Counted from the first letter of the stretch, positions 8,423 to 48,954 are shown. The stretch: DNA of 51,691 nucleotides from Actinomycetota bacterium (GCA_021324595.1 JAJPIV010000011.1:1-51691), one strand, 5' to 3'. Notes: generated by a model from the letters alone, not told the origin. A program made the numbers and translations.

Positions 8423-11400
8423 CGCCCGGGGGCACCTCGCGCGGCGTGCGCGGCCCCGGATCGCGGGGGCCGGCGCTCGGGTGCCCGTCCCGCGGCGCCG
8501 GCCGGCCCGCCGGCCCGGCCGTGGCAGCGCGCGAGGCCCGCGTCGCCAGGCCCAGCGCGAGCGCTAGCGTGCGCGCGAGCACGCGCAGGTCGAGCCGCAG
8601 GCCGCGGCCGCGCAGGTACTCCAGGTCGATCGCCAGCTTCGGGTGCAGCTGCGCGCGGACGTAGTGCTCCTCCGGGTCCAAGCCGGCCGCCCCGTCGTTC
8701 TCCTGGGCCTTCGTGTAGAAGATCTGGCCCGGCCCGGTGAGCCCCGGCCGCACGCGCAGGATCTCCAGCTCGCCGGGGCTGTACCAGGCGAGGAACCGCG
8801 GCACCTCCGGCCGCGGGCCGATCAGCGTCATCTCGCCGCGCACGATGTTCCACAGCTGGGGCAGCTCGTCCAGCTTGCTCGCCCGCAGCAGCGCGCCGAC
8901 CCTGGTGACCCGCGGGTCGGCCGGGCCGGTGACCAGCGATCCGGCGGTGTCGGCGCCGTCGGTCATGGTGCGGAACTTCAGCATGCGGAACGGGCGGCCG
9001 TCCCGGCCGGCGCGGACCTGCCGGTAGATGGCCGGACCGCGGCTAGTGAGCTTGACCACGGCCGCGATGAGGGCAAGCAACGGAGCGGTGACGGCCAGCA
9101 GCCCTCCGGCGATGACCAGGTCGGCGGCGCGCCGCAGCCGGGTGTCGGGGCGGCAGGCGCCCGGGGCCCGGACGGCGGCCGCCGAGCCGGCCCGGGCGGG
9201 CCCCGGGCCGGGCGGCGCGAGCGGCGCGCGGTGCCGGCGGCCCGTTCCCGCCGCGATGCAGGCCAGCGTCGCGGTGGTGGCCAGGTAGGTCACCGCCGAC
9301 GTGATCGCGCCGCCGAGGGCGCCGTACCTGGGGATCAGCAGGATGTCCATGGTCACCGTGATCACCGCGCCGACGCCCATCGCCGCCGAGTTCAGGCCTG
9401 GCCGGCCGCTGCCGAGCAGGAACGCCGACGAGACCGCCGCGGCGCCCTCGACGGACAGCCCGGCGATGATGATCTCGGCGGGCAGGACGGCCCCGCGGAA
9501 GGCCGCGCCGTAGATCACCGGCAGGAGCACGGCGGACGCGACCGCGAGCGCGGGCGCCAGGACGAGCGTCAGCGCCGTCGCCTGCGGCGTCATGCGGCGC
9601 GCCTCGTCGGCCGCGCGCGCCCGCGCCATGCTGGCGAAGCGCGGGTAGAGCACGTAGTTGAGGGCGGTCGGGGCGAGCCGCATCAGCTCGGCGAACTTCG
9701 AGGCGACCGCGTACACGCCGAGCACGGCCGGCCCGGCGAGCGCGCCGAGCAGCACGAAGTCGAAGCGCAAGTTCGTCAGCCAGAGCAGGTTGCCAAGCTG
9801 GCCCCGCGCGCCGAAGGCGGCGATCCGGCGGCCGAGGCGCGCCGACGGGCGGCCCCAGTGCCGGAAGAAGCCCCGGCTGGCCAGCCGGATCAGGCCCGTC
9901 GCGGTGGCCAGGATCCCCGAGGCGATCAGCGCGATCACGACGGCGGTGATCCCCCGGCCGAAGTGGGCCAGCAGCACCGCCGGGTAGCACGCGACGAACC
10001 AGAGCTCCTCGGCGACGATCACCAGGTTGGCGCCGGCGATGTCGCCGCTCCCCTGGCAGCAGCCCTTCGCCGTGACCGTGGCGAGCTGGGTGACCGTGAC
10101 CGCGGCCATGACCGCCACGAGCGAGACCGGCGTGTGGCGGAAGAACAGCGCGTGCAGCGGCCACGAGCAGGCCAGCCACGCGGCAGCGGCGGCGGCGCAG
10201 CCGGCCGCGGTCATCGCGGCGAGCGTGGGTCGCAGCCTGGGGTCGCCGCCGTGCCGCCCGGCGAGGAAGAAGGCCGAGGCGGTCGGCAGGCCGCTGGACA
10301 GGACCACGCCAAGCAGCCAGGGCAGGACCCGCAGCAGCGCGTAGTCACCGACGACCGCCGGGCCGCCCGCCCTGGCGACCATGAGGCTGGCCGCGGACAC
10401 GGCGGCGAGGGCCCCGCCCTGGGCGAGCAGGTTGGAGAGGGAGGCGCGCGAGACCAGCCCGCTCCCTGCGCGCGGCCGGGAGGGGGGCCGGGCCGGCGGA
10501 TCCGGCGCGGCGGCCGGGCCAGGTGCGGCGCGGGCCGCCGGCGGCGCCGGGCTGGCGGGGACCGGCCGGGCCGGGCCGGCCCCGGCCGGGAGGGGCCGGG
10601 ACAGCGTGAGCGCGGGCGAGGGCGGCAGGGCCGCAGGCCGCACCTGCAGCGCCGCGCCCAATGTGCGCCGCCCCGGCCGGGTCACCGAGCGGCGCCTGGC
10701 GTCCCGGCCGAGCACCGCGACGATGCCGAGGAGCGCCCAGAGGAAACGGAAGTGCAGCACCTCCTCGTACAGCGAGTTGGTCACCAGCGCGATCAGCCCG
10801 GCGACGACCGCGACGGGGGCCGGCACCGCCGAGGCGAACCGGGCGGACAGCGGGCGCCTGAGGACCGGGTAGGCCCAGTAGGCCGCCGTGCCGAGCAGCA
10901 GCAGCAGGCCGAGCAGGGCCACCGGGCCGCGCTCGACCAGCATCGCCAGGAAGTCGTTGTGCGCCTCGTTCGCGTACGGGTACAGCCAGGTGGTCAGCAG
11001 CGGCTTGGTGCTCGCCGGGCCGAGCCCGAGCACGCCGGCGCTGCGCTCGTACAACTGCGCCAGCTCCATGATCAGCGTCGTGCGCTCGCTGCTGCTCTGC
11101 CCGCTGCGGCCGATCGAGTTCACCAGCAGCGGCTGCCCGCTCATCAGCGCCCATTGCCGGATCGCGCTGAGCGGGACGGAGGCGAGGAGCACTCCCGCCG
11201 CGGTCGCGGTCGCCAGCACCACCGCCAGCACGCCGGCGAGCCCATGCCGGCGGTGGAGGCGCACCAGCAGCATGAAGAAGATCGCCACGCACAGCGCCAG
11301 CACCCCGCCGTTCGACTCGGTGAGCGCGAGCGCCCAGGCGAGCAGGAGATAGGCGGTGACCCGCATCCAGCGGGCTGACGGGGTGCGCGCCGCGCAGACC

Positions 11401-11993
11401 ACGAAGATCGTCGAGTCCCAGTAGGTTGATGCGTAATTGGGATCGCCGAAGGTGAACATCACGCGGTTGCCCTCGGCGGGCGTCAGGCCCTCGATGACGG
11501 CCACGTGGCCGAGCCACGCGGCGACCACCACGATCGCCCAGAAGATCCCCGACCAGCTCCAGGCGACGAGCACCCAGCGCAGCACGCGCGGCGTGCCGGC
11601 CACGTTCACCACGGTGACGCACCACAGGAAGAGCAGCACGTCGATGGCCAGGGTCAGCAGCGCCAGGCTGGGCAGCGGGCTGACCAGCCCAGACGCCGCC
11701 CCGGCCGCGATCATCAGGCCGACCGGGATGGCGTAGGGCGCCCGGATCTTGCGGTGGCTCGCGGCGACCCAGATCGCCGCGGTCACGATCGCCCCGACCG
11801 TGAGGATGTCGACCGGCGAGCTGTTCCCCGGCCCGGCCGGGTGCAGGATGGGCTGGAAGATGAACGCTAGGACGAGCGTGATCGCGGCGGTGCGCTGGGC
11901 GGTGCGGCGCCGCGGCGCGGCACCGCCGGCCGGCGGCGGGGCCGGCCGGCGGTGCGGCTGCCGGAGCAGGGCCCGGTCCAGCGTCACGGTCAT
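8397..11993 (-). CDS. tripartite exopolysaccharide protein: Wzy-like polymerase - Wzx-like flippase - priming sugar-phosphate transferase
   Basis: One uninterrupted 1198-residue frame encodes three proteins normally made separately. Residues 1-437 are a multi-helix O-antigen ligase/polymerase-like membrane domain with the Wzy_C signature EAHNDFLAMLVERG. Residues about 438-515 are a Pro/Ala-rich linker. Residues about 516-915 are a MOP-type oligosaccharide flippase (LVSRASLSNLLAQGGALAAV and following helices). After a second Pro-rich linker, residues about 955-1150 are a polyprenyl-phosphate sugar-phosphate transferase (YRQVRAGRDGRPFRMLKFRT, DELPQLWNIVRGEMTLIGPR, RPGLTG). The start ATG at 11993 has an AGGAGG site seven bases upstream and overlaps the preceding gene (ATGA). 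No stop codon or frame change separates the domains. Internal initiation cannot be excluded. It is last in the operon. Confidence 0.88.
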   Translation of the reverse strand: MTVTLDRALLRQPHRRPAPPPAGGAAPRRRTAQRTAAITLVLAFIFQPILHPAGPGNSSPVDILTVGAIVTAAIWVAASHRKIRAPYAIPVGLMIAAGAASGLVSPLPSLALLTLAIDVLLFLWCVTVVNVAGTPRVLRWVLVAWSWSGIFWAIVVVAAWLGHVAVIEGLTPAEGNRVMFTFGDPNYASTYWDSTIFVVCAARTPSARWMRVTAYLLLAWALALTESNGGVLALCVAIFFMLLVRLHRRHGLAGVLAVVLATATAAGVLLASVPLSAIRQWALMSGQPLLVNSIGRSGQSSSERTTLIMELAQLYERSAGVLGLGPASTKPLLTTWLYPYANEAHNDFLAMLVERGPVALLGLLLLLGTAAYWAYPVLRRPLSARFASAVPAPVAVVAGLIALVTNSLYEEVLHFRFLWALLGIVAVLGRDARRRSVTRPGRRTLGAALQVRPAALPPSPALTLSRPLPAGAGPARPVPASPAPPAARAAPGPAAAPDPPARPPSRPRAGSGLVSRASLSNLLAQGGALAAVSAASLMVARAGGPAVVGDYALLRVLPWLLGVVLSSGLPTASAFFLAGRHGGDPRLRPTLAAMTAAGCAAAAAAWLACSWPLHALFFRHTPVSLVAVMAAVTVTQLATVTAKGCCQGSGDIAGANLVIVAEELWFVACYPAVLLAHFGRGITAVVIALIASGILATATGLIRLASRGFFRHWGRPSARLGRRIAAFGARGQLGNLLWLTNLRFDFVLLGALAGPAVLGVYAVASKFAELMRLAPTALNYVLYPRFASMARARAADEARRMTPQATALTLVLAPALAVASAVLLPVIYGAAFRGAVLPAEIIIAGLSVEGAAAVSSAFLLGSGRPGLNSAAMGVGAVITVTMDILLIPRYGALGGAITSAVTYLATTATLACIAAGTGRRHRAPLAPPGPGPARAGSAAAVRAPGACRPDTRLRRAADLVIAGGLLAVTAPLLALIAAVVKLTSRGPAIYRQVRAGRDGRPFRMLKFRTMTDGADTAGSLVTGPADPRVTRVGALLRASKLDELPQLWNIVRGEMTLIGPRPEVPRFLAWYSPGELEILRVRPGLTGPGQIFYTKAQENDGAAGLDPEEHYVRAQLHPKLAIDLEYLRGRGLRLDLRVLARTLALALGLATRASRAATAGPAGRPAPRDGHPSAGPRDPGPRTPREVPPGATPDAALP

Positions 11994-13057
11994 CGTGGTG
12001 CCTCCTGCCAGGTCCTGCCGCGCCGGGCGGCGGGGGGCCGGGGCCGTCCGGCGGGGGGCCGGCCGGGGCACAGCGCCCGGAACGCGAGCAGGTGGTTCCG
12101 CGCGAAGCCGGGATGATCCGCCTGGGCGGCGATGCCGGCCAGCTCGGCGAGGAGCACGTCCCGCCCCAGCGCGGCGGGCACGCCCAGCCTGGCCAGGCCG
12201 GAGCCGATGAACTCCCGGACCAGGTCCGGGTACCACCCGGTGCCGTCGATGGCGTAGCGAAGGCCCGCGCCCCACCCGTCGCGCCGCAGGCCGCGATGGC
12301 CGGGCACGCGCCGTCCCGGACGGGCATGCCGGTCCAGGTAGAGGGAGTAGCTGAGCGCGAACCGGGCCAGGTCGCACGCCGGCGGCCCGGACGGGCGCGC
12401 GCCTTCCCAGTCGATCACCCCGCTCACCCGGCCTCCGGCGAGCAGCAGGTTTCCCGGCCAGAAGTCGCCGTGGCACAGGACCAGCGGGACCGGGTGGCCG
12501 GACAGGCGCCCGGCCAGGGCGTCCAGCGCGGCGAGGTCGGCGGCGGTGCTGTCATCGGCGAACCTCGCCGCTATCGCCGTGGCGGTGCCCTCGAGCATGC
12601 CCGCCAGGTCGCCGCTGCCATGCGCGGTGCGCTCCTGGACCCCGGCCAGCCACCGCCCGGCCGCGGCGAAGTCGGCTCGCACCGCCCCGGGGCGGGCGGT
12701 GTGCCGCCAGGAGTGGTAGCCGGCCAGCATGAGGCGCCCCGGGAGGGCGTTCATCACCAGCACGGGCCATCCTTCGTGCTCGGCCACCGCCGTCACGCGC
12801 GGAATCGTGGCCGCGAGCGGGCCGAGGGAGCGGCGGTCGATCCGGCTCAGCGCCGCGATCTCGGCCTCCACGCTGCGCGCCGCCACGTCGCTGCCTGGCA
12901 CCTTGGCGACCAGCTCGGGCACCTCCCCGGCGGGCGGGAAGAGCAGCAGCGAGACCTTGCCGTGGGGATCCTTGGACAGGGCCAGGCAGGCCGACCGCCC
13001 GCCGGCCCTGGCCACGAGGTCGGCCAGCGCCGGGCGCGGCGCCTGCGGGCCGTTCAT
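11990..13057 (-). CDS. APH-family phosphotransferase (small-molecule kinase fold)
   Basis: A 355-residue protein of the aminoglycoside phosphotransferase/choline kinase fold. The catalytic loop LCHGDFWPGNLL lies near residue 195 and the metal-binding VIDWEGA near 215. The N-lobe contains VSLLLFPPAGEVPELVAKVP with the ATP-binding Lys. Substrates in this superfamily include sugars, choline, antibiotics and macrolides. Inside a polysaccharide operon a sugar or lipid-linked intermediate is plausible, but the sequence does not show which. ATG at 13057 overlaps the upstream stop and its own stop overlaps the tripartite gene (ATGA at both ends), so translation is coupled on both sides. Confidence 0.85.
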   Translation of the reverse strand: MNGPQAPRPALADLVARAGGRSACLALSKDPHGKVSLLLFPPAGEVPELVAKVPGSDVAARSVEAEIAALSRIDRRSLGPLAATIPRVTAVAEHEGWPVLVMNALPGRLMLAGYHSWRHTARPGAVRADFAAAGRWLAGVQERTAHGSGDLAGMLEGTATAIAARFADDSTAADLAALDALAGRLSGHPVPLVLCHGDFWPGNLLLAGGRVSGVIDWEGARPSGPPACDLARFALSYSLYLDRHARPGRRVPGHRGLRRDGWGAGLRYAIDGTGWYPDLVREFIGSGLARLGVPAALGRDVLLAELAGIAAQADHPGFARNHLLAFRALCPGRPPAGRPRPPAARRGRTWQEAPR

Positions 13058-13588: not shown

Positions 13589-15055
13589 TCACGTCAGGAC
13601 GGCGAACGGCCTCATCCGCGCCACGGGCCTGACCAGGCCGTGGCCCACGAGGATGCCGAGGGCCTCGTGGACGCCGTTGTCGTCCAGGTGCGGCACCTGC
13701 TCCGGGGCCGCGCCGTCGTAACGGAACCGGGCCGTGGTGCGGCCGAGCGGGTCGGGACCTGACCGGCCGGACCGCTCGAACTTGGAGATGATGCTGCCCG
13801 AGCCGTGGCAGGCCGTGTACAGGCTGCGGTGCGCGCCCGCGGCGGGCACGCACAGGTAGGACGACGTCCGGTTGGTGCCCGGCAGCAGCAGTGGCTGGCC
13901 GGTGGCGGCGAACGCCGGATGCCCGGCCATCAGCTCCGCAGGGTAGGCGCGGCAGGCATTGTGCCGGTGCACGAGCGCGGGCTTCCCGCCCACCTGCTCC
14001 TCGTAGACCGAGTTGTGCGGGGAGTCCACGATCAGCCGGGTTCCGGCGCCGAGTACCGACCGGGCCATGTCGCGCAGCGCCGCGTAGGTGGCCAAGCGGT
14101 AGGCGAAGCCGTAGTTCATCGCCATCCGGGTCGCGAGCAGCACCCGCTGGCCATCCGCGCCGCTGGTGGGTATCGACGGGCAGCCAGCGGTGAAGTAGGC
14201 GGCCAGCCTGCTCGACAGCTGGTCGCGGGAGCGCGCGGTGAGCAGGTGGCTGATCGGCTTCTGCACGCTCATCTCGGCGCGGAGCATCCGGGAGGCGCTC
14301 TTGCGCTTGGCGTACAGCGCGCCGAGCTGGCCGGTGAGCACGCCGCCCCCGTTGTGGAACTGGAGCGTGACCTGGCCCTTGGCGATCCCCAGGTGATCGG
14401 CCGCCCGCTGGTCGAAGATCTCCTCGACCTCCTGGAACTCCAGGAAGTGCGTGCTCGGCCCGATCGAGCCGAAACGCAGCCGGCTGATCTGGACCACCAG
14501 CCACGGCAGGTCACGCCTGGCCCGCCCGGGCCCACCGTATGGCTCCAGGTCGAGCCGCCCCCGCTCCTCGATCCGGTCCAGCTCGGCCTGGCCCAGGCCG
14601 TAGCGCTCGGCGGCGAAATCCGCCCCCTCGGCCGCCGCCCGCAGCACCTCGCGGGAGGTCAGGTCCCGCCGCCAGGTCGGCGGGCTGGGGAACCGGGAGA
14701 TCACCTGGCGGTAGAACGCGCCGACGGCGTCGATGGCCGGCCGCCCGATGTCGAGCGTCATCAGGGCCATGCCGCAGTTCAGGGCCGCGTCGGTGAGGGC
14801 CGGGCGGATCGTGTTCCTGGTGGCCACGGCGATCGAGGACGGCATCTCGGACTTGGCCTTGTGGCAGAAGTCGGGCAGCACCACCGGCGGGGCGGCCAGG
14901 TCGATGCCCGCCGTTCCCTCGTCCAGCCGGCGGATCAGATCCGCCTCGGCGGGCGCAGCCTGGCTGTCGAAGACGGTGAACCGGGAGCCGGCCTTCTGGT
15001 CGGCCGCGCCGGTCAGAACCTTGATGTCCACGCGGGTCCTCCGGAGTGAGGTCAT
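13589..15055 (-). CDS. divergent RtcB-like protein in exopolysaccharide operon
   Basis: A 488-residue protein with the RtcB RNA-ligase fold signature spread along its length: LNCGM (Cys94), THFLEFQE (His203), LQFHNGGG (His234), DSPHNSVYEE (His347), then VHRHNACRA, LPGTNRTSSY and ACHGSGS (His417, the position that carries GMP in RtcB). Bona fide RtcB joins 2',3'-cyclic phosphate or 3'-phosphate RNA to 5'-OH RNA using GTP and Mn. Here the Asp normally three residues before the Cys is Ala91, and HGAGR is HGSGS, so ligase activity is doubtful. ATG at 15055 overlaps the upstream stop (ATGA). Its presence in a polysaccharide operon is unusual; no RNA-repair gene is nearby. Confidence 0.82.
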   Translation of the reverse strand: MTSLRRTRVDIKVLTGAADQKAGSRFTVFDSQAAPAEADLIRRLDEGTAGIDLAAPPVVLPDFCHKAKSEMPSSIAVATRNTIRPALTDAALNCGMALMTLDIGRPAIDAVGAFYRQVISRFPSPPTWRRDLTSREVLRAAAEGADFAAERYGLGQAELDRIEERGRLDLEPYGGPGRARRDLPWLVVQISRLRFGSIGPSTHFLEFQEVEEIFDQRAADHLGIAKGQVTLQFHNGGGVLTGQLGALYAKRKSASRMLRAEMSVQKPISHLLTARSRDQLSSRLAAYFTAGCPSIPTSGADGQRVLLATRMAMNYGFAYRLATYAALRDMARSVLGAGTRLIVDSPHNSVYEEQVGGKPALVHRHNACRAYPAELMAGHPAFAATGQPLLLPGTNRTSSYLCVPAAGAHRSLYTACHGSGSIISKFERSGRSGPDPLGRTTARFRYDGAAPEQVPHLDDNGVHEALGILVGHGLVRPVARMRPFAVLT

Positions 15056-38422: not shown

Positions 38423-38822
38423 GTGAGCGCGATGTTCCCCGGCGAGCCCGGTCCCCTGGCCGATCAGGGGTTCGAGGCGCAGCTCGCGCATGCGCTGGCG
38501 CTGGGGCACGGCTATGCCGGGGAGTCCCGGTGCCTGCGCCGGATCGTCGAGCCAGGGTACCGGCACCGCGACGCCGACGCCGGGGGCATGCGGTGCCAGT
38601 TCGAGCTGCGCCTGGACCGGGCCCGAATGTGGCGGACCGCGGAGGGCGAGCTGTTCGCCACCGCCGACCCGCACGTCCTGGAGATCGAGGCCCTCGATGG
38701 GCTGCGCGCCATCGGCCGGGACCTCGGCCTCCGGATCAGGCTGAGCGGCAAGTCCGTGTACGACCCCGGCCGCGCGTTCACGGTCCTGATCACCCGGGCC
38801 GGCTCGTCGGTGCACTGGTTAG
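38423..38822 (+). pseudogene. unknown ~132-residue protein whose stop codon appears lost
   Basis: From GTG 38423 the frame gives a protein-like sequence of ~132 residues (MRCQFELRLDRARMWRTAEG, HVLEIEALDGLRAIGRDLGL, GKSVYDPGRAFTVLITRAGS, ending SSVHW). The frame then continues open for another ~1 kb entirely antisense to the dehydrogenase gene, which is unlikely to be real. At the point where the protein-like part ends the bases read TGG-T-TAG: a single extra T removes a TAG stop. This may be a true frameshift or a sequencing error. I recognise no family. Confidence 0.45.
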
Positions 38823-39733
38823 GTGCGCGCCTTCGTGCCCGCGCCGCCGGCGACGCCGGCGATCATCGCCTGCTGCTCGTACAGGGACAGGAAGTCGCGC
38901 TCGCGCAGGCCCAGGCCGATGGCCGCCTGGATGAGCTGGTAGACCGCCGATCCGACCGGCATCGGCACCTCAAGCGAGCGCGCCGCGCCGAGCGCGAGGT
39001 CGAAGTCCTTGCGCAGGAGCTCGGTGGTGAACGTGGGCGTCCAGTCCCTGGCCACCAGGTCCTTGGCCCTGGCCCGGGTCCAGTCCGAGCCGAGCACCGT
39101 CGCGTTGAGGAACTCCAGGAACGCGGCCCGGTCCGTCCCGCCCTTCTCCGCCAGGCTGGTCACCTCGACCAGCGCCTGCACGAGCATCCCGAGGTAGAGG
39201 TTGTGGCAGAGCTTGACCAGGCGTGCCTGCTCGCCCTCGCCGGCGTGGACGGCGACCCGGGCGATCTGCTCCAGGTGCGGCTTCACGCGCGCGAACGTGC
39301 CCGCCGGGCCCGAGGCGACGATGCAGGCGTCGCCTCGGGCCACCACGTGCGGATTCCCGCTCACCGGGGCGGCCAGGAACTCGGCCCCGGCGGCGGCCGC
39401 CGCAGCCCGCACCCGTGCCGAGGCGGCCGCCGAGACCGTCGAGCAGTCCACGATCACCTCGGGCCGGCGCTCGCCGGCCAGCAGCCCGCCCCCGCCGCAG
39501 ATCACCTGCTCCAGGTCGGCGTCCCCGCCCACGGTCACGAAGACGATCCCGCAGCCGGCGAGGTCAGCGATCCGCCCGGCCACGGACGCTCCCCTGGCCG
39601 CGAGCGGCTCGGTCTTGGCCGGGGTGCGGTTCCAGACCATCACCTGCTCCCCGGCATCCAGCAGGCGGGCGGCCATCGCCGCGCCCATCCGCCCCGTGCC
39701 GAGCCAGCCGAGCCTGGCGTTTCGCGCGGGCAT
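38819..39733 (-). CDS. beta-hydroxyacid dehydrogenase family (3-hydroxyisobutyrate dehydrogenase-like) oxidoreductase
   Basis: A 304-residue NAD(P)-dependent enzyme. The Rossmann glycine motif is WLGTGRMGAAMA, the cofactor-specificity region VMVWNRTPAKTE indicates an Arg-containing loop often linked to NADP, the substrate motif is DCSTVSAAAS, and the catalytic Lys is in KLCHNLYLG. Substrates are short 3-hydroxyacids such as 3-hydroxyisobutyrate, tartronate semialdehyde or sulfolactaldehyde. The ATG at 39733 has GGAGG six or seven bases upstream. It is the last gene of the operon with the M24 protein (13-base gap) and the split transketolase. The stop codon TAA overlaps the broken plus-strand frame. 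Confidence 0.92.
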   Translation of the reverse strand: MPARNARLGWLGTGRMGAAMAARLLDAGEQVMVWNRTPAKTEPLAARGASVAGRIADLAGCGIVFVTVGGDADLEQVICGGGGLLAGERRPEVIVDCSTVSAAASARVRAAAAAAGAEFLAAPVSGNPHVVARGDACIVASGPAGTFARVKPHLEQIARVAVHAGEGEQARLVKLCHNLYLGMLVQALVEVTSLAEKGGTDRAAFLEFLNATVLGSDWTRARAKDLVARDWTPTFTTELLRKDFDLALGAARSLEVPMPVGSAVYQLIQAAIGLGLRERDFLSLYEQQAMIAGVAGGAGTKART

Positions 39734-39746
39734 CCGGTCCCTCCCG

Positions 39747-41072
39747 TCAGTTGGTCTCGCCCGCCGGCGCCGGCAGGTCGGCGCCGGTCCAGTACCTGGT
39801 GCCCGCCACGTAGAGCTGGTCGGCGGGGAAGCGGGTGAGCAGCTGGCAGCCACCGGGCGTCACCACGACCTCCTCCTCGATCCGGGCCGCCGCCGAGCCG
39901 TCCGGCGTCGGCCAGTACGTCTCGATCGCGAACACCATTCCCTCGCGCAGCTCGACCGGGTGCTCGAACGAGTGGTACCGGCTCATCAGCGGTCGCTCCC
40001 AGTTGGACAGGCCGAGGCCATGACAGTACTGCAGGCCGAATGCCTCCTCCTCGCTGGCGAAGCCGAATTCCTGGGCGGCGGGGAAGTGGCGGACCACGTC
40101 CGCCGAGGTCGCGCCCGGGCGGATCTCGGCGATCGCGTTGTCCATGAACTCCCGCGCCCGGCGGTAGGCCTCTCGCTGGGCCGGCGTCGCGCCGCCGACG
40201 TTGAGCGTGCGGTAGTAGCACGTCCGGTACCCGTTGAACGCGTGGATGATGTCGAAGTAGGCCGTGTCGCCCGGCCGGATCAGGCGGTCGGAGAACACGT
40301 GCGGGTGCGGGCTGCACCGCTCGCCCGAGATCGAGTTCACCGCCTCGACTTCCTCCGAGCCGTTCGCGTACAGGTAGTTGTTGACGAGCGCCACCATGTC
40401 GTTCTCCCGGACTCCCGGCCGCAGCGCCCGGTAGAGCTCGTCGTAGGCGCCGTCCACGAGCGCGGCGGCGTGGTCGGGCAGCGCGATCTCGTCGGCGGTC
40501 TTGATCGCGCGGACATCCTGCATGAGGCCGTGGCCGTCCTCGACCCGCAGCCCCTCGCGCTCCAGCGCGCGCAGCACGGGGAGCTCGACCACGTCCACGC
40601 CCACCGGCTCGCCGGCCAGGCCCGCATCGCGCAGCAGGCCGGCCAGCCGGGCCGCGTTCCCCGCCTCGACGCCCACGTGCTCGGGGATGGACCCGCGCCA
40701 GCTGGAGATCCCGGCCCGCCAGTTGGCGGCGGCGTTCCACGGCGCGTGCCGCTGGTGCTGCCGGGCGGCCGAGCCGATGTCCCACAGGATCGGATCGTGG
40801 CCGCGCATCAGCAGCGCGCAGCGGAAGAACTTGTCCCTGGCCCAGTTCCCGATGTGGGTCGCGGTCGTGTAGCGGATGTTGTTCATGTCGAACAGGATCA
40901 GGGCGCCCAGGCCGGAGGCCTCCAGGGCGGCCCGGGCCCTGGTGATCCGGTCGCCGCGGAGCCTGGCGAAGTCCACGCGCTGCTCCCAGTCGACGCCCGT
41001 GACGGCGCCGGGAGAGGCGACCGGGACGGGCTGGACGGTGGCCGAGTAGAACGAGGTGGCGTAACGGGTCAT
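39747..41072 (-). CDS. M24-fold (aminopeptidase P/creatinase-like) protein with altered metal site
   Basis: A 441-residue protein. The creatinase N-terminal domain (about 40-190, LGALILFDMNNIRYTTATHI) precedes the pita-bread M24 domain. The expected ligands are Asp in TAYFDIIHAF, a second Asp in the GY-x-x-D motif, His in CHGLGLSNWERP, Glu in FAIETYWP and Glu in ARIEEEVVV. The second Asp is replaced by Cys (GYRTCYYRT), so a normal two-metal peptidase site is unlikely. M24 relatives without peptidase activity include creatinase and DMSP lyase DddP. Its operon position beside transketolase and dehydrogenase also suggests small-molecule catabolism rather than peptide cleavage (inference). Confidence 0.85.
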   Translation of the reverse strand: MTRYATSFYSATVQPVPVASPGAVTGVDWEQRVDFARLRGDRITRARAALEASGLGALILFDMNNIRYTTATHIGNWARDKFFRCALLMRGHDPILWDIGSAARQHQRHAPWNAAANWRAGISSWRGSIPEHVGVEAGNAARLAGLLRDAGLAGEPVGVDVVELPVLRALEREGLRVEDGHGLMQDVRAIKTADEIALPDHAAALVDGAYDELYRALRPGVRENDMVALVNNYLYANGSEEVEAVNSISGERCSPHPHVFSDRLIRPGDTAYFDIIHAFNGYRTCYYRTLNVGGATPAQREAYRRAREFMDNAIAEIRPGATSADVVRHFPAAQEFGFASEEEAFGLQYCHGLGLSNWERPLMSRYHSFEHPVELREGMVFAIETYWPTPDGSAAARIEEEVVVTPGGCQLLTRFPADQLYVAGTRYWTGADLPAPAGETN

Positions 41073-41073
41073 G

Positions 41074-41181
41074 GGGCTCGGTCTCCTTCGCGGGCTCGGT
41101 CTCCTTCGCGGGCTCGGTCTCCTTCGCGGGCTCGGTCTCCTTCGCGGGCTCGGTCTCCTTCGCGGGCTCGGTCTCCTTCGC
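41074..41181. repeat. 6 x 18-bp perfect tandem repeat carrying ribosome-binding-site-like sequence
   Basis: Six identical head-to-tail copies of gggctcggtctccttcgc. On the minus strand each unit reads GCGAAGGAGACCGAGCCC and so contains AAGGAG. The array ends one base before the ATG (41070-41072) of the M24 gene, so the nearest copy supplies its Shine-Dalgarno at about nine bases spacing and five more copies stand upstream. Confidence 0.97.
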
Positions 41182-41234
41182 GGGCGCTGGCCGGGCGGGG
41201 CTGGCCGTGATCGGCGGCCGGCGGGCAGGGCGGG

Positions 41235-42260
41235 TCAGACCGGGGCGTACTCCCCGCCCGGCGAGGCGGGGATGGCCGCCGCCGGGGGCGGGCCGGGCCT
41301 GCCGAGCGCGCGCCAGGCCGCGTCCGCGATCGCCTGGGCGGACAGGCCGTACTTGCCGAACAGGTACGGCCACGTCCGCGCTCCCTCGCCGAACGTGCCG
41401 TCCACCCCGATCCTGCGCAACGGCCTGCCCAGGCCCGCCTCGGCCAGCGCCTCGGCGACCGCGCTGCCCAGGCCGCCGGTGGTCAGGTGGTTCTCCGCGG
41501 TGATCACGACGTGGCACTGGCGCGCGGCCGCGAGCACGGTCTCGGCATCGAGCGGCGCGATCACGGGCACGTTCACCACCGCGGTCGTGACGCCGCGCCC
41601 GCGCAGCGCGGCGGCGGCGGCCAGCGCCGGGGCGAGCATCATGCCCGAGGCGACCAGCGCGACGTCCCGGCCATCCGTGAGCCGCTGCGCCCGGTCCAGG
41701 CTCAGCCGGTGGTGCTCGCCGAAGATCACCGGGATCTCGCCGCGCTTGAGGCGCACGTAGGCCGGCCCGGGCAGGTCCGCGATCGCCGCGACCACCTGGC
41801 GGGTCTCCACGGCGTCCGCCACGTCGATCACGGTCATGCCGGGGATCGCGCGCATCAGCGCGACGTCGTCGATCGCCTGGTGGCTTGGCCCGCCGGGGCT
41901 GGACAGGCCCGGCATGAAGCCGATGATCCGCACCGGCAGGCGCGGGTAGGCGACCGCGTTGACGATCTGGTCGAGCGGGCGCCGGGTGGCGAAGACGCCG
42001 AAGGTGTGGACGAACGGGACGTGCCCGCGGCGGGCGAGCGCGCCGGCGATCCCGATCATATTCGCCTCCGCCATGCCGCAGTGAACGAAGCGCCCCGGGA
42101 ACTCGGCCTGGAACAGGTCGATCTCGCACTGCCTGGTCAGGTCGCCGCTGAGGCAGACGATCTCCTCGCGTGAGCGGGCCAGCTCCACGAGCGCGCGCCC
42201 GTAGGGCTTCACCTCGACCGGGTACGGCGGCTCGCGGAGCTCGCCGGGGGGCTCAGGCAC
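41235..42260 (-). CDS. transketolase-family protein, C-terminal (pyrimidine + C) subunit
   Basis: A 341-residue protein with the pyrimidine-binding domain (GRALVELARSREEIVCLSGD, HCGMAEANMIGIAGALA with the catalytic Glu, GPSHQAIDD) and the C-terminal transketolase domain (DVALVASGMMLAPALAAA, ENHLTTGGLGSAVAEALAEA). It forms the second half of a split transketolase with the gene at 42253, overlapping it by eight bases. Split enzymes of this kind act in dedicated sugar-acid, apiose or sulfosugar pathways rather than in central metabolism. The C-terminal ~25 residues are Pro/Ala-rich. A 162-base gap filled mainly by the 18-bp array separates it from the M24 gene. Confidence 0.92.
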   Translation of the reverse strand: MPEPPGELREPPYPVEVKPYGRALVELARSREEIVCLSGDLTRQCEIDLFQAEFPGRFVHCGMAEANMIGIAGALARRGHVPFVHTFGVFATRRPLDQIVNAVAYPRLPVRIIGFMPGLSSPGGPSHQAIDDVALMRAIPGMTVIDVADAVETRQVVAAIADLPGPAYVRLKRGEIPVIFGEHHRLSLDRAQRLTDGRDVALVASGMMLAPALAAAAALRGRGVTTAVVNVPVIAPLDAETVLAAARQCHVVITAENHLTTGGLGSAVAEALAEAGLGRPLRRIGVDGTFGEGARTWPYLFGKYGLSAQAIADAAWRALGRPGPPPAAAIPASPGGEYAPV

Positions 42261-43104
42261 CGTCGCGCCCCAGCCGGGCGGCGATCTCGGCGGCCGCGCG
42301 GCTCGCCAGCTCCGGCGGCAGCTTGATGAAGTGCCCGTCGGAGTCGGCCGGCAGGCAGTCCAGGCCGTGCCGGACCGAGGTGCGGCAGATCAGCGCGGTC
42401 GGGCGGCTCGCGGCCGCCGCTCCGGCCAGCGCGCGGCAGAGCGCGGCGGCGTCGTGGCCGTTCAGGTCCTGAGCCGCCCAGCCGAAGCTCTCCCACTTGG
42501 CGGCGACCGGCTCGATCGTGGTGATCGTGTCAACCGGCCCGTCGACCTGCGAGTTGTTCGCGTCCACTAGCACGGTGAGCCGGGCCAGCCGGTGGTGGGC
42601 CGCGAACATCGCCGCCTCCCAGATCTGGCCTTCCTCCAGCTCGCCGTCGCTGACCAGGGCGAACGTCCGGGCGTCGCGGTCGCGGAGCCGGTCGGAGAGG
42701 GCGAAGCCGGCCGCCGCCGACAGTCCCTGGCCGAGCGACCCGCCGACGTGGTCGAGGACCGGCGATCGCTCCGTGCCGATCGCCTCGATGGCCGATCCGT
42801 CCTGGCCGTACCCGGCGAGGGCATCCGGCGTAAGCAGCCCGAGCTCGGCGGCGGCGGCGTAGAACGCGATCACGTAGTGGCCCGGGGAGCAGACCATCCG
42901 GTCGATGCCCGGGCGGGCGACGGTGAACAGCGCCGCGACCTGCTCGGCCGACGAGAGCGCCTGCCCGAGGTAGCCGAACCCGAGCGGTGCCACCATGCGG
43001 ACCGCTCGCAGCCGGATCGCGTCCGCCAGCACCGCCGGATCGGCGGCGGCCCAGCGTGTCCCGGGATCAGAAACCCGCAAGGCGGGCACATGTGGCATGG
43101 CCAC
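42253..43104 (-). CDS. transketolase-family protein, N-terminal (thiamine diphosphate-binding) subunit
   Basis: A 283-residue protein with the thiamine diphosphate/Mg-binding domain: GFGYLGQALSSAEQVAALF, HVGGSLGQGLSAAAGFA, and SDGELEEGQIWEAAMFAAHH ending in VDANNSQVDG. This corresponds to the first half of transketolase; the second half is the overlapping downstream gene. Start candidates are GTG 43104 and ATG 43098; both fall inside the palindrome at 43090-43106, so a bound repressor would also cover the start. It is first in the four-gene operon and divergent from the GntR regulator. Confidence 0.92.
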   Translation of the reverse strand: MAMPHVPALRVSDPGTRWAAADPAVLADAIRLRAVRMVAPLGFGYLGQALSSAEQVAALFTVARPGIDRMVCSPGHYVIAFYAAAAELGLLTPDALAGYGQDGSAIEAIGTERSPVLDHVGGSLGQGLSAAAGFALSDRLRDRDARTFALVSDGELEEGQIWEAAMFAAHHRLARLTVLVDANNSQVDGPVDTITTIEPVAAKWESFGWAAQDLNGHDAAALCRALAGAAAASRPTALICRTSVRHGLDCLPADSDGHFIKLPPELASRAAAEIAARLGRDGA

Positions 43105-43106
43105 AT
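43090..43106. promoter_or_regulatory. perfect palindrome, probable GntR operator
   Basis: ATGTGGC-ATG-GCCACAT is a perfect 7-3-7 inverted repeat at the junction between the transketolase operon and the divergent GntR gene. GntR/FadR-family operators are short palindromes of this kind next to the regulator gene, so autoregulation and control of the operon are likely. It overlaps the first codons of the transketolase gene. Confidence 0.7.
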
Positions 43107-43193
43107 TGTCACTTTGCCTTCATGTAACGTCAACGGTAGGTGGCAGGGCCTCGTGCGGGGCTCAGCGCGGGAGGGACGTTGCCGGGAAGTCAC

Positions 43194-43976
43194 ATGGCCG
43201 GTCCTGGCCGGACGCAGCGCCGGGAGCGCCGCAGGCCGGCGGCGGTGGACCTGACCGGCATCCCGCCGGTGCCGCCGCTCCGCCGCGCCGACCTCCTCGC
43301 CGAGCAGATCCGCCGCTTCATCGTGACCGCGGGGATCGCCGAGGGCGCGCGGCTGCCCGCCGAGCGGGACCTCGCGGAGCGGTTCGGCGCGAGCCGGCCG
43401 ACGGTCAGCCAGGCGCTGCGGACCCTGTCGCTGATGGGCCTGGTGGAGATCCGCCACGGGTCCGGTGCCTACGTGGTCCGCCGCCCAGAGGCGATGGTGG
43501 CGGCGTCGGTCGGCCTCATGCTCGACCTCGACCAGCGGTCGGTGGGCCACCTGATGCGGCTGCGCCTGTGGCTGGAGACGCTCGGCGTCACCGAGGCCGC
43601 GGGCCGCGAGCCCGCGCTGGCGGAGGCCGAGGCCGGGCAGATCGGCACCGCGCTCGCCCGGCTGCGCGACACCGCGGGCCGGACGTCGGAGTGGATCGCC
43701 GCCGACACCGTGTTCCACGCCACGGTGGTGCGCGCCGCAGGGAACCCGTACCTGACCGCCATGTACGAGAGCGTGCACGGCGCGGTGCTGTCCCACCAGC
43801 TGAGGGCATGGGTGGACGACGAGGCGGAGCCACGCTGGCTGCGCGAGTCGGGGCCGGAGCGGCACTGGGCGCTGCACGAGCCGATCGCCGGCGCGGTCCT
43901 GCGCCGCGACGCCGCCGCGGCGCAGGACGCCGTCCTGCGCCACCATCGGGTCATGACCGAGCACATGGAAGCCTAG
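43194..43976 (+). CDS. GntR-family regulator, FadR/FCD subfamily
   Basis: About 260 residues. The N-terminal winged helix (about 25-95) has LAEQIRRFIVTAGIAEGARL, PAERDLAERFGASRPTVSQA and LVEIRHGSGAYVV. The C-terminal ~150 residues form an all-helical FCD ligand domain (MRLRLWLETLGVTEAAG, DTVFHATVVRAAGNPYL, LHEPIAGAVLRRD) with the Asp/His metal-binding pattern usual for organic-acid sensing. The ATG at 43194 follows GGGAAG; a GTG at 43140 is a possible longer start. Being divergent from the transketolase operon with a palindrome between them, it very likely represses that operon and responds to its substrate or an intermediate. Confidence 0.9.
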   Translation: MAGPGRTQRRERRRPAAVDLTGIPPVPPLRRADLLAEQIRRFIVTAGIAEGARLPAERDLAERFGASRPTVSQALRTLSLMGLVEIRHGSGAYVVRRPEAMVAASVGLMLDLDQRSVGHLMRLRLWLETLGVTEAAGREPALAEAEAGQIGTALARLRDTAGRTSEWIAADTVFHATVVRAAGNPYLTAMYESVHGAVLSHQLRAWVDDEAEPRWLRESGPERHWALHEPIAGAVLRRDAAAAQDAVLRHHRVMTEHMEA

Positions 43977-44208: not shown

Positions 44209-47200
44209 TCAGCCCCACAAGTCGGGGCGGTAGCGTGCGGTCGCCTCAAGCTCGCGGACATAGGCCTCCGCGTGGTCCCCGGGCAGTCGCCCGTGCTGTG
44301 CTGCCACCTCCACGAACGCGGCGCGGACGGCATCGCGCATCGGCTGAGATCCGCAGACGTACACGTAGCCCCCGGCGGCGAGCATGCGCCAGGTCAGCGC
44401 GCCGTGTGCCCTGATCCGGTCCTGGACGTGCTCCCCGCGGCCGGGCGGCTCGCGCGAGGTCGCCACGTGCAAGTGGTCGAGCGCGCCCTCCGCGACGAGC
44501 CGTTCGATCTCGTCACGGTAGATGAAGTCCTGGCTCGCCGACCGGATGCCGTTGAACAGCAGCGCCTCGCCGAGGCGGGCACCCGCGCGCCGCATCGCCA
44601 GCCGCTCCCACAGGAACGCCCGCATCGGGGCGAAGCCCGTGCCGGCCGAGACGAAGATCATCGGCTTGGCCACGTCCTCCTGCAGGGTGAATCCCTCGGT
44701 GGTGTGCAGGAAGACATCCAGCAAGTCGCCCGGCCGGAGCCGGTGCAGGAAGCGCGAGGCGATCCCGGGCAGGACCCGTCCCGGTGCTCCCGGCGCCGGC
44801 ACCGCGTGCAGGCCGACGGTCAGGTGCACGGTCTGGTCGCCGTGGATCTTCGGGCTCGAGCTGGCCGAGTAGTAGCGCGGGCGAAGCGGCTGGGCGGCGC
44901 TGAGGAACTCGAAGATGTTGAGCCGGCACGACGTGAACGTGGCGAGGAGGCCGAGCACGTCGCAGCCATCCGCGGGCCCCGCGCCATCCGCGGGCCCCGC
45001 GTGATCGGGGTGCCCCGGGTGACCGGGATGCCCTGCGTGATCGGCAGGCCCGGCCGCGCCGGCGCGAGGCCTGGCGCCGGCCGGCGCGGTCAGCATCTCC
45101 TCGATCCGGCCGAGCGCGGCGCGCTCGGCCGGATCGGCGGCCCGCTCGCGCAGGAGGCCGGCGAGGGCGGCGGCCGGCCGGCCGGTGATGTCGACCAGGC
45201 TGGTGAGCACGTTCCGGACCTGCAGCACGACGCCCGTCGGCACGGCGCGCACGTCCATCGCCGACGGGACCGTGAACAGGCTTTCCGCGGGCGCGCCCAG
45301 GCGCCAGGCGAGCCAGGCGACCTGCTCCGGGTCGTTCCTCGGGCAGACGCCCAGATGATCGCCTGCCCGGTAGGTCACGCCCGCGGGGAGGGCGAGCTCC
45401 AGGTGACGGGTGCGCTTGGGCGACCCGGCTGCCTGGAGCTCGCGGGAGGCCAGCGTGCGCGCGACGATCGTGTCCAGGCCGACGGCGTTGGTGAGCAGCT
45501 CCGGGGCCAGCACCAGGCGGGACCGCCTGCTCCTGTCGCCCGTCGCCGAGCGGCGCCACGATCCGGACGACATGCGCCGGATCACCGAGGACATGCCGGA
45601 GGATGGCGGAGCTGGCGCGGCGTCCTCGCGCCGCAGTGACCTGTGCATGGCCGTCGTCGAGTCGGTCCTGGTCAGCTCCCCGGTCGCGGCTCCCTCGGCG
45701 GCGGCGCGATCCGCGGCTTCCTTCGTGGCGCGCGCCCCGGACAGCCGGAGCAGCAACGGCCAGACGCGGGCATTCCAGTCCGCGTGCGCGCGCTCCCATG
45801 CCGGCGTGCCCACGTCGCCATGGGCGAGGTCGGCGAGCGGGGTGGCGCCGATTTCGGCCAGCTTGCCGTGCACCCAGCGAGGGAACGCGAGGAACGCGTT
45901 CCACTGGCTGTTGCCCAGGCCCCAGACCAGGTAGCTGCACTGCCGCCAGGCGTCTGAGCCCGGCGGGGTGCGGTCGAGCCAGGCCTTGAACGCGGTCGCG
46001 TTCGACGGCGGATTGGAGGTGTACGTCGAGGTCATCACGACCAGCAGCCACGGCCCGCGGCGCGGCGGCGCCTGAGCGAGATCGTTGAGCGTGATCACGT
46101 CGCAGGTGTAGCCGTGGTGATGGCCGCGCCGCGCGAACCGCTCGGCGAGTTCCTTGTTCGCCCCGAAGTTGCTCCCGTAGGCGATCACCAGGTGCCGGTA
46201 GGCGCTTGCCTGGGGGATCTCGGTGGGCTCGCCCCACTCGGCCGGAACGGAGCGGGCGGACGCGGGGCGATCCGGCCCCTGGCCGCCCCGGACGGCGACC
46301 GGAGCGCCTGGCACGGGCGGAATGACGGGGGCCGGGGGAACGGCAGGGCGATCCAGGAACGCCGCCGGCCCGCCGCGCCGGCTGCTCTCCTCGCGGGGCA
46401 GCAGGACGACCGGGACCGACGTCGGCTTGGTCGTCACGACCGTGTTCTTCGCCACCGTCGCCCCGGGTGCCATCCGCAGCCGGTAGTGCTTGCAGATCTC
46501 GAACATGACGACGCGCAGCATCATGAACGTGACCTCTTGGGCCATGCACTGCCGCTTGCCGACCGAGAACGGGATGAACGCGTGGCGCGGCCGGCCGATG
46601 AGCCGGTCGGGCGCGAAATGCCCCGGGTCGAACCGGTCGGGATCGGGTCCCCAGTACCGCGGGTCCCGCTGGGCGGCGAGCGTGCCGACCAGGATGATGT
46701 CGCCCTTCCTGACGCGGTACCGGCCGAGCGTGCCGTCCTTCAGGCTGCGGCGGATGGTGACCGGCATCGGCGGGTAGACCCGCAGCGTCTCCTTGATCAC
46801 CTGAGTCAGGTACGGCAGCGCCGACAGGTCTTCGTACCGCAGGTCGTAGCCGGGATCGCCGCCGGTGATCCCGTCGACCTCGGCGAGCACCCGCTCCTCG
46901 ACGTCCGGGCGGGTGGCCAGGACGTGCGCGAGCCACGCCCCGGTGATCGACGGGCCGTTGAAGCCGTTCGACAGGTGCATGAGGATCTGGTCGCGCACGG
47001 TCGGCGCGTCGAGCAGGCTGCCGGTCTCCGGGTCCGGGGTGGTGACCAGGCGGGTCAGCAGGTCGTTCCGCTGCCCGGCCGATGCCGCGTGCGCCCGTGC
47101 GCGCACGAGCGCGCCGGCCGTCGCGTAGAGCTCGGCATTGTGGCGCCGGTACCGCCGCACCCGCTCCCGCTTGCGGCGCCCCGCCACCAGCGTGAAGTCG

Positions 47201-48261
47201 GGAAAAGGATCGGCGACCCGCCGGATGCTCTCCTTCGTGCTCTCCGGGACGGCCACGGCGAACGGGTGCGGCTGGCCGTCGCCGGCGAGCAGGGCGAAGT
47301 CATAGTCACAGGCGCCGCGGCCGGAGACCTCCAGCGCGTAGCGCTCCATCCAGGCCCGCGCGTCCAGTGGCTGGCCGGCGGGCAGCGCCGACCACGCGGT
47401 GACCAGCTTGCGCGCCTGCTCCTTCATCTGCTCTAGCTGAGTCCGCTGGTTCGCCGGCGAGTACCACGGCAGCATCACGCGCCGGATCCGCTCGTAGCCG
47501 GGGCCGTCGCTGATCACCGAGATCCCGTCGCCGCGCGAGTTGCGCAGCTGGGCGAAGAAGTTGATCTCCTCGACGAGCTTGCCGAACTGCTCCTCATCCG
47601 CTGCGACCTGATCGAGGAGCTCAGGGTCGGAAACGACGACCAGCCGCCACTTCTTCGTGGGGACCCCGACCGCGTAGATGTGCCCGAACCTGCGGAAGTA
47701 CTCCAGCTGGCTGTCGTTGTCGTTCAGGATGCGGAAGTTCGAGAAGCGCTCTCCTCGGGCCGCGAGCCAGCGGATCGCGTAAGGGATCTCGATCGGCTCC
47801 GTCCGCTCCGCCTCCCGCCCGCCGGCCGCGGATCGCGGCGCGGGCTCCGGCGGCCCGGGCCGCCGCCAGGCGCGGCTCGCCGGCTCGCCAGGCGAGCTGT
47901 GGCCGGCACCGGGCTCGCGGGTGGCGCCGGGCTCGCGGGTGGCGCAGGCCAGGCCCGGGCCGTCCGCCTGGTGGCCGAGCCGGACCAGGCACCGCTCGCC
48001 GAGCACGACCCGGTCGACCCGGGCCCCCCCGACGTAGGTGCCGTTCGTGCTGCCGGCGTCCAGCAGCACCCACTGGCCGTCCTCATGGCGCAGCAGGGCG
48101 TGGTGCCAGGACACCCTGGGGTCGCTGATCACGATGTCGCACGCAGGATCCCGGCCGACGAGGTAGGAGCGCCCGGCGGTGAGCGTCCGCTCGGAGCCGG
48201 CTGCGCTGACCACGAGGTCCGGCGCTGGCATAGGCCAAGGGTAGGGCAGCGTGCGCTGCAT
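44209..48261 (-). CDS. FHA domain - cytochrome P450 - FMN/FAD reductase fusion (self-sufficient P450, CYP102-like)
   Basis: A 1350-residue single polypeptide. FHA domain: ~12-100 (YLVGRDPACDIVISD, SWHHALL, STNGTYV), which binds phosphothreonine. Linker to ~150. P450 domain: ~153-640, with ExxR in KETLRVY (~489) and axial Cys ~571 in FSVGKRQCMAQEV. The I-helix reads NGFNGPSIT, lacking the usual acid-Thr pair. Flavodoxin domain: ~690-850 (VIAYGSNFGANKELA, GLGNSQWNAF). A basic Ser/Thr-rich linker follows (~850-950). FAD/NADPH reductase: ~950-1350 (RYYSASSSPK, SAGTGFAPMRAFL, YVCGSQPMRDAV, terminal Trp-Gly). Domain order after the FHA matches P450 BM3. The start may be ATG 48261 or 48231. A tiny membrane protein follows in the same transcript. 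Confidence 0.93.
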   Translation of the reverse strand: MQRTLPYPWPMPAPDLVVSAAGSERTLTAGRSYLVGRDPACDIVISDPRVSWHHALLRHEDGQWVLLDAGSTNGTYVGGARVDRVVLGERCLVRLGHQADGPGLACATREPGATREPGAGHSSPGEPASRAWRRPGPPEPAPRSAAGGREAERTEPIEIPYAIRWLAARGERFSNFRILNDNDSQLEYFRRFGHIYAVGVPTKKWRLVVVSDPELLDQVAADEEQFGKLVEEINFFAQLRNSRGDGISVISDGPGYERIRRVMLPWYSPANQRTQLEQMKEQARKLVTAWSALPAGQPLDARAWMERYALEVSGRGACDYDFALLAGDGQPHPFAVAVPESTKESIRRVADPFPDFTLVAGRRKRERVRRYRRHNAELYATAGALVRARAHAASAGQRNDLLTRLVTTPDPETGSLLDAPTVRDQILMHLSNGFNGPSITGAWLAHVLATRPDVEERVLAEVDGITGGDPGYDLRYEDLSALPYLTQVIKETLRVYPPMPVTIRRSLKDGTLGRYRVRKGDIILVGTLAAQRDPRYWGPDPDRFDPGHFAPDRLIGRPRHAFIPFSVGKRQCMAQEVTFMMLRVVMFEICKHYRLRMAPGATVAKNTVVTTKPTSVPVVLLPREESSRRGGPAAFLDRPAVPPAPVIPPVPGAPVAVRGGQGPDRPASARSVPAEWGEPTEIPQASAYRHLVIAYGSNFGANKELAERFARRGHHHGYTCDVITLNDLAQAPPRRGPWLLVVMTSTYTSNPPSNATAFKAWLDRTPPGSDAWRQCSYLVWGLGNSQWNAFLAFPRWVHGKLAEIGATPLADLAHGDVGTPAWERAHADWNARVWPLLLRLSGARATKEAADRAAAEGAATGELTRTDSTTAMHRSLRREDAAPAPPSSGMSSVIRRMSSGSWRRSATGDRSRRSRLVLAPELLTNAVGLDTIVARTLASRELQAAGSPKRTRHLELALPAGVTYRAGDHLGVCPRNDPEQVAWLAWRLGAPAESLFTVPSAMDVRAVPTGVVLQVRNVLTSLVDITGRPAAALAGLLRERAADPAERAALGRIEEMLTAPAGARPRAGAAGPADHAGHPGHPGHPDHAGPADGAGPADGCDVLGLLATFTSCRLNIFEFLSAAQPLRPRYYSASSSPKIHGDQTVHLTVGLHAVPAPGAPGRVLPGIASRFLHRLRPGDLLDVFLHTTEGFTLQEDVAKPMIFVSAGTGFAPMRAFLWERLAMRRAGARLGEALLFNGIRSASQDFIYRDEIERLVAEGALDHLHVATSREPPGRGEHVQDRIRAHGALTWRMLAAGGYVYVCGSQPMRDAVRAAFVEVAAQHGRLPGDHAEAYVRELEATARYRPDLWG
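44965..45054. repeat. degenerate 5 x 18-bp tandem repeat inside the reductase domain
   Basis: Two identical 18-base units (gccatccgcgggccccgc at 44965 and 44983) are followed by three degenerate units at 45001, 45019 and 45037. On the coding (minus) strand they encode a Gly/Pro/His/Asp-rich insert (GHPGHPGHPDHAGPADG) within the FAD domain that BM3-type enzymes lack. Confidence 0.85.
47909..47944. repeat. 2 x 18-bp tandem repeat in the FHA-P450 linker
   Basis: Two identical copies of ccgggctcgcgggtggcg encode a duplicated ATREPG segment in the linker between the FHA and P450 domains. The Thr next to Arg could be a phosphorylation site, which is speculation. Confidence 0.85.
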
Positions 48262-48405: not shown

Positions 48406-48954
48406 GTGGTGTCCGGCATCGGCCGGGTCATCGTCGGCGCGAGCGGTTCACCGGGCAGCCTGCGGGCGCTGCGGTACGCGGAGGAGCTGGCCCGCGCCCA
48501 TGATGCCATCCTGATTCCCGTGCTCGCGTGGGTGCCGCCTGGCGGCGAGGCCGCCGACCTGCAGTACCCCTCCGATCACCTGCGCCGCGTCTGGGCCGAG
48601 GACGCGCAGCACAGGCTGCGCGACGTGCTGCTCGCGGTCTGGGGGGAGGTCCCGGCCGACGCGTCGGTCCAGCCGATCGCGCAGCGCGGCGAGGCCGGAC
48701 GCGTCCTGGTGGAGATCGCCTCCCGCCCCGGCGACCTGCTCGTGGTGGGTGCCGGGCGCCGCCGGCGGCGGCCCGGGTTCCGGGCCGGGAAGGTGAGCCG
48801 CTACTGCCTGGCCCACGCCGCGTGCCCGGTGCTGGCGGTGCCGCCGCCGGCGCTGGCCGGCGAGCTCGGGCACGGGCCGCTCGGCTGGGCGTTCTGGCGC
48901 CGGCAGCTCACGCCCGAGCAGGTGCTCGACGAGCGCGGCCCCGCGCCGGCCTAG
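48406..48954 (+). CDS. universal stress protein (UspA family)
   Basis: A 182-residue protein with one USP domain: RVIVGASGSPGSLRALRYA at the N-terminus, PVLAWVPPGGEA, and the nucleotide-binding end VVGAGRRRRRPGFRAGKVS leading into CPVLAVP. A ~30-residue tail (LGWAFWRRQLTPEQVLDE) is extra. Such proteins accumulate under starvation or low oxygen. Its location beside narHJI fits a hypoxia-type regulon, but no unambiguous DosR box was found. Start GTG 48406 (or the next GTG, 48409) has AAGGAG a few bases upstream. It is divergent from the P450 gene and convergent with the cupin. Confidence 0.88.
   Translation: MVSGIGRVIVGASGSPGSLRALRYAEELARAHDAILIPVLAWVPPGGEAADLQYPSDHLRRVWAEDAQHRLRDVLLAVWGEVPADASVQPIAQRGEAGRVLVEIASRPGDLLVVGAGRRRRRPGFRAGKVSRYCLAHAACPVLAVPPPALAGELGHGPLGWAFWRRQLTPEQVLDERGPAPA

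Follow-up and report, generated by a model that had tools for sequence, protein, structure and literature searches.

An FHA domain joined to an atypical self-sufficient P450 in a soil actinobacterium: a putative link between a monooxygenase and protein phosphorylation

For bacterial P450s, no coupling to protein phosphorylation is known. A gene in a soil actinobacterium, in which an FHA domain precedes a P450 and its reductase, raises the question of whether such a fusion is genuine and, if so, what the FHA domain would do there. The window analysed (51,691 nucleotides) is the whole of contig C118, from a genome of 4.1 Mb in 168 contigs. We find that the fusion is real, and we consider it fairly probable, from the residues conserved, that the product is an atypical self-sufficient P450 docked, either on a partner or on its own hinge, by an FHA domain functional in phosphothreonine binding. 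Its features, with the flavin mononucleotide (FMN) and flavin adenine dinucleotide (FAD) domains of the reductase, are as follows:

44209..48261, minus strand: whole gene, FHA, P450, FMN, FAD/NADPH (open reading frame, Pfam and guanine-plus-cytosine (GC) content by codon position)
47974..48165, minus strand: FHA domain, residues 33-96, with G36, R37, S51, H54 and N73 (Pfam PF00498)
47794..47973, minus strand: FHA-to-P450 linker, residues 97-156, without in-frame ATG, GTG or TTG
46450..47703, minus strand: P450 heme domain, residues 187-604 (Pfam PF00067, 180.6 bits)
46948..46974, minus strand: I-helix motif LSNGFNGPS, residues 430-438, with Asn-Gly for the acid-alcohol pair (profile alignment to CYP102L1 and Bacillus CYP102)
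46537..46572, minus strand: heme-thiolate motif PFSVGKRQCMAQ, with Cys572 (sequence and family alignment)
45802..46185, minus strand: FMN (flavodoxin) domain, residues 693-820 (Pfam Flavodoxin_1)
45514..45645, minus strand: FMN-FAD hinge, residues 873-916, with a Ser/Arg-rich insertion (length comparison)
45103..45465, minus strand: FAD-binding domain, first part, residues 933-1053 (Pfam FAD_binding_1)
44965..45069, minus strand: insertion of low complexity (Ala, Gly, Pro, His) within the FAD domain, residues 1065-1099, absent from all relatives
44851..44877, minus strand: FAD motif RYYSASSSP (family alignment)
44323..44655, minus strand: NADPH-binding domain, residues 1203-1313 (Pfam NAD_binding_1)

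The gene is a single open reading frame of 1350 residues, read from 48261 to 44209, in which all five Pfam domain types (FHA, P450, Flavodoxin_1, FAD_binding_1 and NAD_binding_1) exceed their cut-offs, a second FAD_binding_1 piece following the low-complexity insertion. A reading made earlier from the sequence alone (hereafter the sequence-only reading) had rightly placed all domains in one frame at these coordinates, but had not given the strand; the plus-strand reading of 44209-48261 contains stops and was rejected. GC at codon positions 1, 2 and 3 (0.72, 0.55 and 0.93) fits a genuine gene, and is already coding-like through the FHA domain and onward into the rest of the frame. Moreover, from codon 87 until the P450 begins, the frame contains no ATG, GTG or TTG. 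Any ordinary start that yields the P450 thus also yields the FHA region, which is obligately co-translated with it.

A second copy confirms this picture. Indeed, a metagenome-assembled genome (MAG) from a different study, labelled Nocardiopsis (locus L052), encodes the identical domain order, with a strong ribosome site, GGGGGAGG, shortly 5' of the ATG that precedes its FHA domain. As this fusion is independent, that in the window is not an assembly accident, and the FHA-P450-reductase protein is real. The opposite explanation, that the FHA region is untranslated or that the fusion is an error of assembly or annotation, finds some support in the window ATG, which has no Shine-Dalgarno sequence, so that the exact start may be ATG1, ATG11 or GTG17, all of which precede the Pfam FHA core. 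It is nevertheless already largely refuted by the missing downstream start codon, by the ribosome site ahead of FHA in the independently fused L052 and by the coding-like composition across the FHA domain, and we hold it to be extremely improbable. Accordingly, the window gene has no ordinary start codon for translation beginning between the FHA region and the P450, translation after the FHA region being the result that the sequence-only reading had named as speaking against it.

The FHA domain itself matches PF00498 with 67.3 bits for a cut-off of 20.7, and the GR, SxxH and NG motifs reported by the sequence-only reading are all present (G36-R37, S51-W-H-H54 and N73-G74). In FHA I of Mycobacterium tuberculosis Rv1747, the residues that bind phosphothreonine are G32, R33, S47, H50 and N69 (PMC5549992). 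The five corresponding residues of the window protein are the same, each shifted by exactly four positions, and this Rv1747 domain is also the best solved relative, both by sequence (3e-17) and by fold (Foldseek 2.4e-5, the query being a modest-quality FHA model with a confidence score, pLDDT, of 62). The same five residues are identical in L052, together with a common VSW[HQ]HA signature, even though the two FHA domains share only 49% identity. The linker that follows is 20% identical between the two proteins, versus 77% for the P450. Within the genome of the window, the nearest FHA domain among the compared regions (seven were taken, with L002 discounted as having been read in a wrong frame) is the first one of an Rv1747-like ABC transporter, at 51% over 94 residues. 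FHA matches number 13 in this genome, which also encodes at least one kinase of the Ser/Thr type (motif HRDLKPGN); a phosphothreonine network is thus likely to exist in the cell.

The P450 is less ordinary than its domain order suggests. The sequence-only reading had called the chain complete and CYP102/BM3-like, which holds for the P450-FMN-FAD/NADPH order and the reductase sites, but not for the I-helix, where the usual acid-alcohol pair is missing and Asn-Gly stands instead. LSNGFNGPS aligns with LxAGxETxx of CYP102L1 and Bacillus CYP102, a register reproduced by a separate short search; in BM3 numbering, Ala264 is replaced by Asn (Asn432), Glu267-Thr268 by Asn-Gly (N435-G436) and Thr269 by Pro (Pro437). 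The pair is usual in P450s without being universal, and its absence alone defines nothing; here, however, it is absent from all members of the family described below, NGFNGPS being invariant in the 10 family sequences out of 10. One of them (L048, reading MSNGFNGP) was reachable through the heme motif only, and the choice of search motifs therefore cannot alone explain this invariance. With such an atypical heme pocket (Asn432, Asn435, Gly436 and Pro437), oxygen activation would probably depend on the substrate or on water instead of an acid-alcohol pair. By contrast with the I-helix, the remaining catalytic positions are conserved: the ExxR residues E491 and R494, the heme ligand C572 and the C-helix R260 are invariant across the family wherever sequence exists. 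As the P450 domains of the window and L052 are 77% identical between classes, a single physiological substrate seems a better expectation than broad detoxification.

The reductase tells the same story of conservation, since W787, R1129, Y1131, S1132, G1207, G1209 and W1349 are invariant in all family members tested. Together with the invariant ExxR, heme Cys and C-helix Arg, these FMN, FAD and NADPH positions make it very probable that the enzyme has kept its need for electrons. Judging by its intact sites, the protein is predicted to be a self-sufficient P450 with a CPR-type diflavin reductase, made of fused FMN and FAD/NADPH domains. The combination of a retained fused reductase with an absent acid-alcohol pair is relevant to the way in which P450s activate oxygen.

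Relatives were sought across 84,980 species genomes by means of conserved motifs taken from the window protein; they surfaced once the search peptides were confined to these motifs, the peptides drawn automatically from the unmasked protein being non-conserved and returning 0 relatives. Ten loci were found, nine of which are family members, with approximately 58-68% identity over the whole alignment: seven come from six Thermoleophilia genomes, and the two others are L052 and L049, the latter in a MAG labelled Proteobacteria. A survey of the Thermoleophilia-type class returned the same six genomes out of 399, which makes the family a rare one. Among 297 genomes from the order, two of them belonging to the same genus, no match reached 1e-50; no relative was found among viral contigs and no family member in the class of f21. 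The closest P450s outside the family share at most 34% identity among 346 genomes of the phylum, at most 33% (heme domain) among plasmids, where no alignment to the FHA part appears among the matches listed, and approximately 30% among solved CYP102s. All these values lie below the identity of more than about 40% by which a P450 is assigned to a CYP family. The P450 thus apparently belongs to a small and rare family, new and so far undescribed.

Only two members of this family, the window protein and L052, carry an FHA domain; they form one clade (97/95; 71% core identity) in a tree built without distant outgroups. In the six members from Thermoleophilia whose start is visible, the protein begins near the P450 and has no N-terminal domain, and L049 (7215-11339, plus strand; 58% identical to the window protein) has two tandem cytochrome b5 domains in place of FHA (Pfam 141 bits, two stretches). 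Since the P450 stands in a separate family of which most members lack it, FHA is, on this distribution, an add-on and no part of the catalytic core. The N-terminal slot of the family naturally accepts FHA or cytochrome b5 modules, which is useful in itself.

The hinge between the FMN and FAD domains follows the same distribution. Indeed, it measures 44 residues in the window protein and 41 in L052, versus 7-15 in the FHA-less members measured (that of L048 is likewise short, by alignment), so that an insertion of approximately 30 residues is restricted to the two FHA members, in which it has a weak common pattern (MSSVIRRM and VTSIMRRL). As the hinge of diflavin enzymes such as CPR and NOS governs domain motion, the joint arrival of FHA and a hinge insertion is suggestive, though no proof, of a phospho-switch.

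A candidate partner lies next to the gene, in divergent orientation:

48406..48954, plus strand: universal stress protein, adjacent divergent gene (PF00582, 67 bits)

Its sole Thr, T169, is located in the C-terminal tail RRQLTPEQV. In M. tuberculosis, the phosphorylated universal stress protein Rv2623 binds FHA I of Rv1747, and not FHA II. By analogy, the adjacent protein is a possible partner of the FHA domain described here.

The route of electrons would be that of other fused P450s, from NADPH to FAD, FMN and heme, and the FHA domain, whose type is that of FHA I in Rv1747, most likely binds phosphothreonine made by a Ser/Thr kinase of the cell. It could then dock the enzyme on a partner that has been phosphorylated, for which the adjacent universal stress protein is a candidate, or fold back onto its own phosphorylated hinge and brake electron transfer; such docking would control either the place of the enzyme or its electron flow. 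The sequence-only reading had proposed a monooxygenase controlled by phosphorylation, and this is supported in part: the FHA domain is real, co-translated and similar to Rv1747 FHA I, and its phosphate-binding residues are kept in a second lineage, but control of activity, location or assembly by phosphorylation is putative, and the P450 departs from an ordinary BM3-like enzyme. More specifically, a P450 switched by Ser/Thr phosphorylation, with FHA reading a phosphate carried by the hinge or by a docked stress protein and gating electron flow to a heme that lacks the acid-alcohol pair, would be the first natural case; we advance it only tentatively.

Several observations weigh against docking and gating, in addition to the missing Shine-Dalgarno sequence. 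The Ser/Thr positions of the hinge are out of register between the two FHA proteins, and their common motif has a Ser in the window protein, whereas FHA domains prefer phosphothreonine. The two carriers are sisters, and the pairing of FHA with the hinge may be one evolutionary event. An AlphaFold2 model of the FHA-P450 part, built with nine near relatives, was too poor for use (mean pLDDT 46). Finally, the surroundings of the L052 copy showed no universal stress protein gene, and the partner idea is thereby a lead only.

The FHA domain might also have been gained by recombination as a passive passenger, or as a module for solubility or oligomerization, with no signalling role. Such an origin would sit well with a core that does not need FHA, most family members being without it and one having cytochrome b5 there, and with an FHA identity between carriers (49%) far under that of the P450. 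However, a passenger should tend to lose its phosphate-binding residues, and all five survive at this identity together with the VSW[HQ]HA signature, so that we regard this explanation as unlikely. Other readings concern the chemistry of the heme. In CYP74 and in prostacyclin synthase (CYP8A1), the I-helix has GFN or GxxGP in place of the acid-alcohol pair; N-G-F-N-G-P resembles these motifs, and the P450 could be a peroxide isomerase or lyase of this kind; we found no published comparison of NGFNGP with these I-helices. Enzymes of the CYP74 and CYP8A1 type need no reductase, though, whereas the tested reductase sites are invariant here in all members, and CYP8B1, with a similar motif, is a reductase-dependent hydroxylase. 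An isomerase or lyase is thus decidedly improbable.

The genes around the P450s bear on another proposal, that of a nitric oxide reductase or nitric oxide-handling enzyme of denitrifying or hypoxic metabolism, which would explain the lost acid-alcohol pair. In the window, narH, narJ, narI and a cupin gene lie upstream of the FHA-P450 gene in the same direction, with the universal stress protein as a further neighbour; L048 is flanked by genes for a NirK-like copper protein and cytochrome oxidase, and L049 by cytochrome bc and oxidase genes. Yet no respiratory or NirK-like neighbours were found at L046, L047, L051 or L052, and the NirK-like match stays below its cut-off (188 versus 296 bits). 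Moreover, known P450nor (CYP55) lacks a reductase domain and takes its electrons straight from NAD(P)H, unlike the present protein with its full fused diflavin reductase. Judged by name, the 60 best solved relatives shown include no molecule called CYP55. We consider this proposal slightly less probable still than an isomerase or lyase. Membership in a hypoxia regulon, for which the neighbours had been the only ground, was dropped; DevR/DosR-type boxes are rarer than chance, with none upstream of the FHA-P450 gene. As for a role in a defence system, there was no PADLOC match. A P450 docked by its FHA domain remains our preferred reading, and with reader, catalyst and electron supply in a single chain, the phosphorylation question is directly testable.

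Other genes were noted in passing. In two Thermoleophilia, a helix-turn-helix regulator whose C-terminal part bears a cluster of cysteines is divergent from the P450 (L046, 7151-7972, and L054, 2625-3350, both minus strand); it is SufR-like by eye, with a weak Pfam match. In the window, 38819-43976 forms an unassigned catabolic cluster (GntR regulator, transketolase split into N and C halves, M24 peptidase and a 3-hydroxyisobutyrate-dehydrogenase-like gene). At 8397-12476 (minus strand), an open reading frame of 1359 residues matches Wzy_C, a Wzx-like flippase (Polysacc_synt_3) and Bac_transf, and is possibly a triple fusion of a polysaccharide assembly line (O-antigen polymerase/ligase, flippase and first sugar transferase); an RtcB-type RNA ligase lies amid the polysaccharide biosynthesis region (13589-15055, minus strand).

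No publication joining an FHA domain with a self-sufficient P450 or CYP102 was found in the open literature, a scope that leaves subscription papers and preprints outside. Among known systems, the CYP102 enzymes (P450 BM3 and CYP102L1) have the same P450-FMN-FAD/NADPH order in one chain and, among solved structures, are the nearest relatives of its heme domain, but the window protein departs from them by its low identity, by N435-G436 for E267-T268 and Asn432 for A264, and by its N-terminal FHA domain and hinge insertion. Rv1747 FHA I, the best FHA relative with its five identically spaced binding residues, sits on an ABC transporter with a second FHA domain, whereas the window FHA sits on a P450. 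OdhI and GarA, both recovered in the FHA sequence and fold searches, likewise tie an FHA domain to metabolism: these proteins control a metabolic enzyme, with binding of phosphothreonine in their own tail as the switch. They are, however, separate small proteins acting in trans, unlike an FHA domain fused to the enzyme. Within the P450 family itself, L049 shares the P450 and reductase but has its two cytochrome b5 domains at the position taken by FHA in the window protein, an arrangement that is itself unusual. As far as found, FHA on a self-sufficient P450 is unique apart from the L052 sister; the protein is made of known parts, while both its P450 family and its control architecture are apparently new.

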